A stretch of 64,000 bases of DNA from Candidatus Saccharimonadota bacterium (GTDB lineage: Bacteria; Patescibacteriota; Saccharimonadia; Saccharimonadales; UBA4665). Position 1 is the stretch's first letter. Each line of letters starts with the position of its first letter. The notes below the pieces were generated by a model. That model saw nothing but the letters and a program-made list of their open reading frames with translations, was not told the origin of the DNA and did no database searches. A program made the position numbers and the translations under genes. Below are positions 52,550-55,276 of this stretch, in pieces. The stretch is from positions 1-64,000 of the forward strand of contig JARIHC010000004.1 in assembly GCA_029288485.1 (NCBI GenBank), in the 5' to 3' direction.

Positions 52550-52984
52550 ATGGCATCTAAAGAACTTCTCGTCGCTACGGCCTACCAATCTCACGTTAGC
52601 CGATCCACTAACAAACTCCACGCAAGCTATATCGACTGGTTGAACAAAATGCTCGAGGGACTTGAAGGCCAAGGCTACAGCGTATCTAATGCCCTGCGCG
52701 ACAACAACTTTCGGATTGAAAACAATCCTGTGGCTGCTCACGAATATGATATTTCCCGTGTCCGTATTTGCGATGCGTTTATCGGCGTCTTAGACGAAAT
52801 AGGGTCGCGAGGTGTTCAAACTGGCATCGGTAGGGCGGAAATGCTGGGTAAGCCTATTATGCTGGCTCATACTGGAGTAGTAGGACTCGATACTTTTAAT
52901 CGTTCTTTAGTTGAGGCCGGTGCGGCGCACGAAATATCAATGCCTATAGATTATGATCAACTGGCCAATATAATTGGCGGCTAG
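52550..52984 (+). CDS. Nucleoside 2-deoxyribosyltransferase-like protein
   Basis: 144 residues. The layout resembles the nucleoside 2-deoxyribosyltransferase/TIR-like fold: a first strand LLVATAYQS, then a central D-I-S-R-V-R-I-C-D-A-F-I-G-V-L-D and G-R-A-E-M-L-G-K-P-I-M-L, corresponding to the family's aspartate strand and E-x-G-x-A-x4-K-P helix. The catalytic Glu is uncertain, since the usual GxEIGYA reads GIGRAEM. It begins 12 bases after rpsI, so it is read with rplM-rpsI. It may act in nucleotide salvage, which is inference. Confidence 0.45.
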   Translation: MASKELLVATAYQSHVSRSTNKLHASYIDWLNKMLEGLEGQGYSVSNALRDNNFRIENNPVAAHEYDISRVRICDAFIGVLDEIGSRGVQTGIGRAEMLGKPIMLAHTGVVGLDTFNRSLVEAGAAHEISMPIDYDQLANIIGG

Positions 52985-53013
52985 TTGACAAAGAATTATT
53001 TAGGGTGTACATT
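52985..53013 (+). promoter_or_regulatory. Promoter of the aromatic attenuator-DAHP synthase-trpS unit
   Basis: Perfect TTGACA (52985-52990), 17 bases, TACATT (53008-53013). The leader peptide ATG is at 53021, seven bases after the -10, so the leader peptide would be translated from the very 5' end of the RNA. Confidence 0.8.
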
Positions 53014-53020
53014 AGCTCTC

Positions 53021-53095
53021 ATGTCAACACAGCGCTATAACCATTTTTGGTTTGCCGTCCCCTTACGAGGCGGTAGTTTCTCTGTGTCTGCATAA
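53021..53095 (+). CDS. Aromatic-rich leader peptide of an attenuator
   Basis: A 24-codon ORF, ATG 53021 to TAA 53093-53095, product MSTQRYNHFWFAVPLRGGSF followed by SVSA. Codons 6, 9, 10 and 11 are Tyr, Phe, Trp and Phe. Codon 12 is the first base triplet of attenuator arm 1, the position expected for ribosome-stalling control. There is no ribosome-binding site; the start coincides with the predicted transcript start, as for other leaderless genes in this window. Confidence 0.75.
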   Translation: MSTQRYNHFWFAVPLRGGSFSVSA

Positions 53096-53140
53096 ATAAG
53101 TTAAGCATCCAGGAATCAACCGCCGTCCAGGCGGTTTTTT
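53054..53140 (+). promoter_or_regulatory. Four-arm transcription attenuator with intrinsic terminator
   Basis: Arm 1 GCCGTCC (53054-53060) pairs with arm 2 GGCGGT (53069-53074) through CCGTC/GGCGG. Arm 2 pairs perfectly over six bases with arm 3 ACCGCC (53119-53124), forming the antiterminator. Arm 3, as AACCGCC (53118-53124), pairs with arm 4 GGCGGTT (53130-53136) around loop GTCCA, and the stem runs into TTTTTT (53135-53140), an intrinsic terminator. A ribosome stalled at the Phe-Trp-Phe codons would mask arm 1 and let 2:3 form. Confidence 0.8.
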
Positions 53141-53161
53141 AATACATTTAAGAAGGAAATT

Positions 53162-54241
53162 ATGACAGAAGCGCCCGCTAGCCCAAACACTGCTGAACTC
53201 AGAGATGAATATGGTATTGAACTAAGCACGCAGTTAGCTGTGCTTGAGACAGCTGATGCCGTCAGTTTGAAACTTAAAGGTCCTGATGGCGGTTTGGTGG
53301 CAATTATTGGTGGCTGCGCTATGACAGGAGATAAGTTTGCCGTTGAATACGAAGGCCGCCGAATTGCCAACTTTAGCGCCGAATACGTAGAACATGGACC
53401 TACAGTGTTGCATCGTACCCCGCCATGGAAACCACGCACCAATCCCGATAGCTGGCATGGTGAAGAGACTAGTAATCCTGCCGGTGCATACCAAACACTC
53501 GCTCGCTTAGCAACCGATAACGCTAACGTGGCTATCGAACTTGCCAGTCAAGCTCACATAGCTCGTTACGGTCCTATGGTTTCATTTGGCTGGATAGGTA
53601 GCCGTAAGGTAGAAGATAATCGGCTGGTGCGAATGCTAGCTATCCGAGATCCTAAGCTGCCGCTTGGCATCAAGAACGGCATAGACGGGAAGATTGAAAC
53701 AGCCCTAGAGAGCGTCAGCATGGTGAATGAGATACGAAGCAACGTTTCCGACGCCGCGCCAGCTATATTAATTTACCGTGGTGGACAGAACGCCGTGACA
53801 CCCGAAGATTGGCAAGCAATGTATCGGCGTGCGTTAGATATGACAGAGGGCAGGCTGATAGTTGATGTTGCTCATGGAAGCGAAATGGCTCACGATCCAG
53901 CTCGTCAATTTAATAAGTCTATGGCAGGTCAAATGCTGGCCATGGAAGCCGTGATTAATGTAGCCGACCGAGGAGAGTTGCCGGCCGGGATCATGATTGA
54001 AGCAAGTGACATTCAGATTGATGACCCTCGTCATATAACCGACCCCAACATCCCGCTTAGTGTTGCATTTGACGGCATCGATCAGCTTAACAGTAGAAAA
54101 ATAGGTCGAGTTAAAATTAATTCCGAGGAAAAGGTTTCGCGAGAAGATTTTACAGATAAAGTGGTCCGAGTGTCTGCGTTAATTGAGAATGCGCAAAATA
54201 CCGCCCGTAGGATGCTGCACCCTCAAAATGCGCTATACTAA
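53162..54241 (+). CDS. aroF: DAHP synthase-like protein (class I AroF/G family)
   Basis: 3-deoxy-D-arabino-heptulosonate-7-phosphate synthase family, which joins phosphoenolpyruvate and erythrose 4-phosphate in the first step of aromatic synthesis. In 359 residues it keeps the metal-ligand Cys (C52 in IGGCAMTGD), the substrate loop KPRT, GIKNGIDG, YRGG, the ligand His (H238 in VDVAHGS) and the ligand Glu (E280 in IMIEAS). The fourth ligand region, T-D-A-C-x-G in Escherichia coli, reads SVAFDG, so the Asp is shifted or lost. AAGAAGGAAA precedes the ATG. No other shikimate gene is in the window. The attenuator supports a role tied to aromatic amino acids. Confidence 0.75.
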   Translation: MTEAPASPNTAELRDEYGIELSTQLAVLETADAVSLKLKGPDGGLVAIIGGCAMTGDKFAVEYEGRRIANFSAEYVEHGPTVLHRTPPWKPRTNPDSWHGEETSNPAGAYQTLARLATDNANVAIELASQAHIARYGPMVSFGWIGSRKVEDNRLVRMLAIRDPKLPLGIKNGIDGKIETALESVSMVNEIRSNVSDAAPAILIYRGGQNAVTPEDWQAMYRRALDMTEGRLIVDVAHGSEMAHDPARQFNKSMAGQMLAMEAVINVADRGELPAGIMIEASDIQIDDPRHITDPNIPLSVAFDGIDQLNSRKIGRVKINSEEKVSREDFTDKVVRVSALIENAQNTARRMLHPQNALY

Positions 54242-54256
54242 GTGCTAGAGAACAAT

Positions 54257-55276
54257 ATGACAAAACCGGTAATTTTAACTGGTCTTAGGGCAAATAATGA
54301 TTTGCATATAGGCAATTACTTGGGGGCTTTATTGCCTCTGGTAGATATGGCGCGCCAAAAATCCAGCGAATACCAGGTCAATCTATTCGTACCGGACTTG
54401 CATAGTTTTACTACACCGATTGATCACAGCCAGTTGCAGGCGTCTATCATGCAAAACATACGCGTATTCACGGCTGCTGGGCTGCCGCTCGATAACCCCG
54501 ATGTTAACATCTATCGTCAAAGCTACATTCCAGCCCATTCTGAATTAACTTGGATATTAGATTGCTTTACTGGTGCTGGCGAAATGCGACGAATGACGCA
54601 GTTTAAGGATAAGTCTGAAGGTCTGGGCGATGAACGGGTTAGCGTAGGGCTGTTTAACTATCCGGTGTTGATGGCAGCAGACATACTGTTGTACGGCGCC
54701 CGCTTCGTACCTGTTGGCGATGATCAGACTCAACACTTAGAATTTGCCCGCGATATAGCCGAAAGACTGAACAATAAGTTCGGTGATCTCTTTGTGGTGC
54801 CAGAACCAGTCAAAAAACAGCATGAATTTTTTGGCAAAGACCAAGGACTGCGCATCCGTGATCTTCAGAATCCTCTTAAAAAGATGAGCAAAAGTGACGA
54901 ATCTGGCAAAGGCGTAATATTTCTAACTGATTCACCGAAGGCGGCTAGGAAAAAAATTATGAGTGCCGAAACAGATAGTATAGGCAAAGTTAACTACGAC
55001 TATGAGCGCCAGCCTGGGGTTAGCAATTTGCTCGACATCTATCGCTTTCTTGGCGGTGAACCGCGTGAATTTATAGGTGAAGCCCAGTATGGACTGCTTA
55101 AAAAAGCTGTGGCTGATAAGGTCGAAGGTTTTTTGATAGATTTTCAAGCTAGGTTGAAAAAAGTTGATAACGCTCAGATTTTCAATAAGTTAGAGTCTGA
55201 TGAGGCAAAAATGCGGAAAATTGCAGATTCTCAGTTATTGAAAGTCCAGAAAGCTGTGGGCTTGAGGCCGCAATGA
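54257..55276 (+). CDS. trpS: Tryptophanyl-tRNA synthetase
   Basis: Class I synthetase that charges tRNA-Trp; 339 residues. HIGH-type HIGN near the start and KMSKS in PLKKMSKSDES are intact. The ATG at 54257 gives MTKPVILTG, the usual N-terminus; a GTG at 54242, directly after the upstream stop, is an alternative start. It is 15 bases from the DAHP synthase-like gene and so probably shares its attenuator. The TGA overlaps the next ATG. Confidence 0.94.
   Translation: MTKPVILTGLRANNDLHIGNYLGALLPLVDMARQKSSEYQVNLFVPDLHSFTTPIDHSQLQASIMQNIRVFTAAGLPLDNPDVNIYRQSYIPAHSELTWILDCFTGAGEMRRMTQFKDKSEGLGDERVSVGLFNYPVLMAADILLYGARFVPVGDDQTQHLEFARDIAERLNNKFGDLFVVPEPVKKQHEFFGKDQGLRIRDLQNPLKKMSKSDESGKGVIFLTDSPKAARKKIMSAETDSIGKVNYDYERQPGVSNLLDIYRFLGGEPREFIGEAQYGLLKKAVADKVEGFLIDFQARLKKVDNAQIFNKLESDEAKMRKIADSQLLKVQKAVGLRPQ

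Follow-up and report, generated by a model that had tools for sequence, protein, structure and literature searches.

The window analyzed here is a 64,000-nucleotide stretch of the genome of a Candidatus Saccharimonadota bacterium (assembly GCA_029288485.1, contig JARIHC010000004.1, positions 1 to 64,000 of the forward strand), in which the element of interest occupies positions 52985-53161 of the plus strand and precedes two genes on the same strand. The first of these, at 53162-54241, codes for a protein resembling class I DAHP synthases (PF00793 above cut-off, E 2.7e-11), and the second, at 54257-55276, is trpS, coding for the tryptophanyl-tRNA synthetase (TIGR00233 above cut-off, E 1.8e-83). 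The element opens with a -35 box, TTGACA (52985-52990), followed after a 17-nt spacer by a -10 box, TACATT (53008-53013), both on the plus strand. Only 7 nt past the -10 box lies the ATG (53021) of a 24-codon plus-strand ORF, MSTQRYNHFWFAVPLRGGSFSVSA, which runs to a TAA stop at 53093-53095 (ORF 53021-53095) and has no Shine-Dalgarno sequence, i.e., it displays a leaderless geometry. In contrast, the first structural gene is preceded by a Shine-Dalgarno sequence, AAGGA, at 53153-53157 on the plus strand. The short ORF features a cluster of aromatic codons within 53036-53053 (plus strand), namely Tyr6 (53036), Phe9 (53045), Trp10 (53048) and Phe11 (53051). On the upstream side, a 144-residue ORF without a Pfam match (52550-52984) separates rpsI from the leader in the window, and its stop codon directly adjoins the -35 box.

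Four complementary arms, all on the plus strand, follow the aromatic codons. Arm 1, GCCGTCC (53054-53060), begins at codon 12 and can form six pairs, including two G-U, with arm 2. Arm 2, GGCGGT (53069-53074), lies within the leader ORF and can pair with either arm 1 or arm 3. Arm 3, AACCGCC (53118-53124), is correspondingly shared between an antiterminator with arm 2, perfect over 6 bp, and an intrinsic terminator with arm 4, GGCGGTT (53130-53136), which forms 7 bp at about -12 kcal/mol and is completed by a U-tract (arm and tract together 53130-53140). In the window sequence the 3:4 pairing, at -12.2 kcal/mol, is more stable than the 2:3 pairing at -8.4; thus, antitermination requires that 2:3 form first during transcription, as in known attenuators. 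The leader RNA as a whole folds with a z-score of -2.5 against dinucleotide shuffles. A sequence-only reading of the DNA had proposed this promoter, the ORF with Tyr6, Phe9, Trp10 and Phe11, and the four arms with six perfect 2:3 pairs and seven 3:4 pairs, and all of these hold base for base. Its further statement that arm 4 is followed by six T holds only in part: the six T occupy 53135-53140, the first two of them being the 3′ end of arm 4, so that four T residues lie past the 7-bp stem.

Searches with the DAHP synthase-like protein recovered, on either strand, homologous loci in which rpsI is followed in turn by the leader, the DAHP synthase-like gene and trpS, and the carriers of this gene in the named collection are mostly Candidatus Saccharibacteria/Saccharimonadia. 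The leader peptide is too short to serve as a query, finding just 3 of 60 genomes with the source genome among them, and a covariance model (R1) was therefore needed. R1 was built from ten leaders, all from family members, for which RNAalifold picked the 2:3 antiterminator as the consensus structure. It matches 43 of 93 genomes and 29 of 41 genera of the family, and 108 of 393 genomes and 84 of 156 genera of the order (Candidatus Saccharibacteria); under the strict filters used, the element was not detected by R1 in about 73% of the 393 order genomes. Minus-strand matches were discarded, the terminator being palindromic. Matches in genomes outside the seed reach E = 5.8e-18, and this recurrence, together with the folding z-score, indicates that the element is not a chance arrangement. 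No Rfam family, including T-box, known riboswitches and Trp_leader, matched the region at E up to 1, the sole Rfam score being to an unrelated snoRNA elsewhere. In seven genomes (G050, G041, G171, G195, G048, G172 and G032) two attenuator-like elements stand close in tandem on one strand before a single operon.

The arms co-vary across these elements. For the 2:3 pairing (77 elements, 12 possible pairs), 78.8% of cells hold standard pairs as compared to 32-48% when the arms are slid by 1-3 bases, and changes on both sides occur in 10 of the 12 pairs. Double-change cells number 58 as against 33.1 +- 4.3 after shuffling, with none of 500 shuffles as high and no more than 28 when slid. The 3:4 pairing is standard in 95.7% of cells (21 double-change cells versus 5.0 shuffled), and the 1:2 pairing, scored in 71 elements, in 71.0% (26 versus 12.6 shuffled). 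Individual lineages illustrate how a change in one arm is met in its partners. Thus, in G286, G344 and G252 the GTGG of arm 2 has become CTGG (GTGGCGGT to CTGGCGGT), and arm 1 and arm 3 each have CAG in place of CAC. In G183, G242 and G366a the GGCGGT of arm 2 has become GACGGT, arm 3 reads ACCGTC and arm 4 reads GACGGT (GTGACGGT accompanied by ACCGTCAC and GACGGT), and in G106 all four arms are altered, to TCGCCT, AGGCGAT, ATCGTC and GGCGAT. Two qualifications apply to the counts: R1 itself contained eight pairs of 2:3, hence the elements it found lean somewhat towards that pairing, and the pair counts were not corrected for relatedness.

The leader ORF is present in 79 of the 82 collected elements and contains Trp in 75 of these 79, nearly always as Tyr/Phe-Trp-Phe, within a Y/F-W-F-T core that is strongly conserved at the amino-acid level. 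On the 3′ side of the aromatic codons it is the RNA, GTGGCGGTTTGTTC, that is conserved. Across 71 elements the arm-2 RNA is read in three frames, as RGG.. (26), SWR.. (8) and VAVCSV.. (37), and therefore the peptide there is free while the RNA is constrained. Arm 2 is accordingly conserved as RNA, and Y/F-W-F as codons. The two are held in register: the Trp codon lies 20-21 nt upstream of arm 2 in most elements (55 of 71), the full range being 19-27 nt, and arm 1 starts 6 nt past the start of the Trp codon. From known ribosome footprints we infer that a ribosome that has Trp in its A site would sit on arm 1, with arm 2 remaining accessible. The leaderless geometry likewise recurs among the 79 leaders, with a perfect TTGACA in 35, a 17-nt spacer in 54, a start codon 7-9 nt past the -10 box in 64, and a Shine-Dalgarno-like sequence in just 6, the transcription start itself being unmapped. 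Promoter scores of at least 9 of 12 matches were obtained for 60 of the 79 leaders versus 6 of 243 internal ATGs of the same DNA.

Downstream, trpS is found in 65 of the 82 elements, and many of the remainder are cut by the available DNA or have a related gene. It is hence the constant target of the attenuator, combined with a variable first gene. The latter is DAHP synthase-like in the window and about a dozen other elements; elsewhere it is a chorismate mutase (G358), a LysE transporter together with a prephenate dehydratase (G178), a prephenate dehydratase (G040), Asp/Glu racemase-like ORFs, unidentified small ORFs, or nothing at all. The small first ORFs at two such loci (L002 and L003) matched no Pfam family. 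The leader codons change together with the downstream gene, pairing Trp with trpS, Phe with pheA, and Tyr with prephenate dehydrogenase. The Phe case is a second element in G286, whose leader MHYIVSNFFAFTNPS (FFAF) precedes a chorismate mutase/prephenate dehydratase (pheA) gene identified by sequence. Tyr codons occupy the leader before the prephenate dehydrogenase in G155b, and also before a biopterin-dependent aromatic amino-acid hydroxylase in G366b.

The DAHP synthase-like protein aligns with DAHP synthases in the PDB (E 3e-7) and with E. coli AroF at the Cys, the Arg/Lys and the metal ligands, retaining the metal- and substrate-binding residues, but its NCBIfam scores fall well short of the equivalog cut-offs. 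The source genome lacks chorismate synthase, as do 91 of 92 family genomes, the enzyme being present in 14 of 14 control genomes. Searches of the source genome with E. coli queries did not find aroBDE or trp genes, and returned just a prephenate dehydratase and a shikimate kinase-like protein from the aromatic route. With no detectable chorismate synthase or trp genes, the DAHP synthase-like enzyme cannot feed a complete pathway in the source genome. The family is thus orphaned, with its catalytic residues kept, in genomes lacking chorismate synthase, and its role is unexplained. The attenuator also occurs in the family member G019, where it (MLIASTYWFTETPYGGLLDV) precedes the DAHP synthase gene. 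As read from its sequences (L206, G019:C10:1-14000), G019 is a rare Saccharibacterial relative with aroK-aroE-aroD-aroC and trpE-G-D-F clusters, which adjoin transketolase- and transaldolase-like genes. We infer that the element once headed an aromatic pathway and has been retained for trpS and the remnants as that pathway was lost. Plasmid and phage searches with DAHP synthases yielded ordinary relatives only. A Saccharibacterial DAHP synthase-like protein (46% identical) was also seen in CAJCIR010000052.1 (L184), labelled 'Chlamydiae bacterium', which is likely a mislabelled bin.

We posit that 52985-53161 is a cis-acting, ribosome-mediated transcription attenuator of the trp/phe type with a leaderless leader, a reading that we consider very likely (probability of roughly 0.93). 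The parts themselves, their conservation and co-variation, the fixed distance from Trp to arm 2 and the match between codons and genes are shown. It is inferred, there being no RNA or protein data for the organism, where transcription starts, that the leader is translated, that ribosomes stall on it and that the element responds when aminoacyl-tRNA runs short. In the proposed mechanism, RNA polymerase would start at the leader ATG or immediately beside it, and a ribosome would load on the leaderless 5′ end and translate the Tyr-N-H-Phe-Trp-Phe leader close behind the polymerase. With charged aromatic tRNAs plentiful, chiefly tRNA-Trp, the ribosome would clear the aromatic codons, complete the ORF and leave, upon which 1:2 and 3:4 would form and the terminator at 53118-53140 would end transcription. 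With these tRNAs scarce, the ribosome would stall at codons 9-11 and mask arm 1; arm 2, about 20 nt downstream of the stall, would then be free to form 2:3, no terminator would arise, and the DAHP synthase-like gene and trpS would be transcribed. The sequence-only reading had likewise proposed trp/phe-type attenuation and an alignment of related genomes as a check on it. That alignment was run, and the ORF, the aromatic codons and compensatory arm changes are all kept, which supports the proposal. Its claim that the element controls the first enzyme of aromatic synthesis along with TrpRS held for TrpRS and only partly for the first enzyme, as many different genes can occupy the first position, the DAHP synthase-like gene being just one of them, and no full pathway is present.

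One rival explanation holds that selection acts on a functional small aromatic peptide or a trans-acting small protein, with the terminator being incidental. The strong conservation of the Y/F-W-F-T core as amino acids fits this idea, and trans-acting leader peptides do exist (peTrpL, PMC7298713). However, the C-terminal half is read in three frames (RGG.., VAVCSV.. and SWR..), such that the RNA and not the peptide is conserved there, and Trp gives way to Phe or Tyr in leaders whose downstream gene serves the synthesis of that amino acid; we regard this alternative as very unlikely. Also very unlikely is a protein- or ligand-binding leader, such as a T-box, a riboswitch or a TRAP-like system, in which the ORF would be fortuitous. 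In outline, a T-box would likewise place a terminator/antiterminator ahead of a gene for a tRNA synthetase, but the region has no Rfam match at E up to 1, the ORF and its aromatic codons sit at a fixed distance from arm 2, and the position of the promoter leaves no space for a T-box stem I. Finally, an ordinary intergenic promoter and terminator with arms complementary by chance in one genome is all but excluded: short regions often contain complementarities of six or seven bases, but the element, with compensatory changes, is retained in over 100 related genomes, a comparison that refutes it.

The same architecture is not confined to aromatic codons. A scan of the whole source genome for a promoter, a leaderless ORF, a terminator and a gene, using no arm sequence, returned exactly three places: the attenuator in the window, an Ile leader and a Val leader. 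The Ile element, outside the window at G000:C2:76017-76220 (L025), has a leaderless leader with four Ile codons, MCKQLMIESIIIIPPSGG, and a terminator, and precedes a threonine-dehydratase-like (IlvA-like) gene, i.e., the first step of isoleucine synthesis. The Val element, on the minus strand at G000:C8:36387 (L054), has a leaderless leader with four Val codons, MTSAFNLVVVVESR, and a terminator before a 104-residue ORF of unidentified family. Controls with displaced promoters gave 0-3 candidates and no codon runs except the true Ile element. The homologous gene is headed by an Ile leader in three other genomes as well, namely G023 (MANYRIIEGMIIIPAAG), G100 and G035 (MSNSIIMSEMIMTPRRGCL in these two). 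Outside the order, a weaker match (L159) has an NWW leader, MQISFNWWTTSLWR, before trpB. Similar leader-terminator elements with other codons were observed in this and further Patescibacteria (L159, L163, L167, L161, L155, L157, L158 and L165), including the NWW leader before trpB, Ile-rich leaders, long Phe/Tyr/Trp runs, and an HH leader whose element is followed by a 301-residue ORF and then hisS. Some of these lie near the chance threshold of R1, for which about 4 chance matches are expected outside the order at E above ~0.001. Several out-of-order matches in this range (L156, L166) had no sensible leader, and such matches are not all real.

The mechanism itself is already known. In Streptomyces lividans, leaderless leaders precede synthetase and biosynthetic genes (trpL2 before trpS, leuL2 before leuS and trpL1 before trpE; PMC8079986), and the trpL2-trpS and leuL2-leuS pairs resemble the element in the window, whose own leader is leaderless by its geometry, in placing a short leader with the cognate codon before an aminoacyl-tRNA synthetase gene. 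The sequence-only reading had held that a leader peptide without a 5′ leader is unusual; this failed, as leaderless trpL, leuL and ilvL have been described in Streptomyces and leaderless leaders are usual in Actinobacteria (PMC8079986). The S. lividans trpL2, MMTRTCTQLWRAA, differs in having a single Trp and no U-tract, whereas the element in the window combines Tyr, Trp and Phe codons with a clear U-tract terminator; moreover, the Saccharibacterial element, unlike trpL2-trpS, has a variable first gene between leader and trpS. In Corynebacterium glutamicum, aroR is an aromatic leader before aroF (Neshat 2014 via PMC11802643; PMC4046766), and shares with the element in the window an aromatic leader (Phe-Tyr-Phe in aroR) before a DAHP synthase gene and stalling at aromatic codons, the last being inferred for the window. 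However, aroR responds to Phe and not to Tyr and its reported motif, Phe-Tyr-Phe, lacks Trp (PMC11802643; PMC4046766), whereas the Saccharibacterial leaders almost always contain Trp and have trpS as their constant target. With trpL and pheL of the E. coli trp and pheA operons the element has in common the four-arm logic of 1:2 and 3:4 versus 2:3. The E. coli leaders have a Shine-Dalgarno sequence, a longer 5′ end and an arm 2 past the leader stop codon; in the window, by contrast, the ORF contains both arm 1 and arm 2 and has its stop about 20 nt past arm 2. In the open-access literature searched (subscription journals were mostly outside it) we found no description of attenuation leader peptides in Saccharibacteria or Patescibacteria, and within that scope the corresponding statement of the sequence-only reading held. 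As far as we could find, then, the novelty lies in the phylum, in the RNA family and in a leader that combines codons for three amino acids ahead of trpS.

These observations extend attenuation to a deep bacterial branch and add an RNA family absent from Rfam. A bolder reading is that leaderless attenuators with Trp/Tyr/Phe, Ile, Val and probably His codons constitute a general amino-acid-starvation response of Patescibacteria, which was retained after pathway loss and now tunes tRNA synthetases along with leftover or salvage enzymes to host supply; we consider this as apt to fail as to hold. Patescibacteria are viewed as dependent cells with little regulation, and most are hard to study genetically. 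The codons of a cis-element of this type name the amino acid that is sensed, offering a way to read from sequence alone which amino acids limit these epibionts, and the element also hints at the possible function of an orphan gene at the head of the operon. Host-dependent, reduced bacteria would thus keep a codon-specific sensing of amino-acid supply, its response to starvation being inferred.
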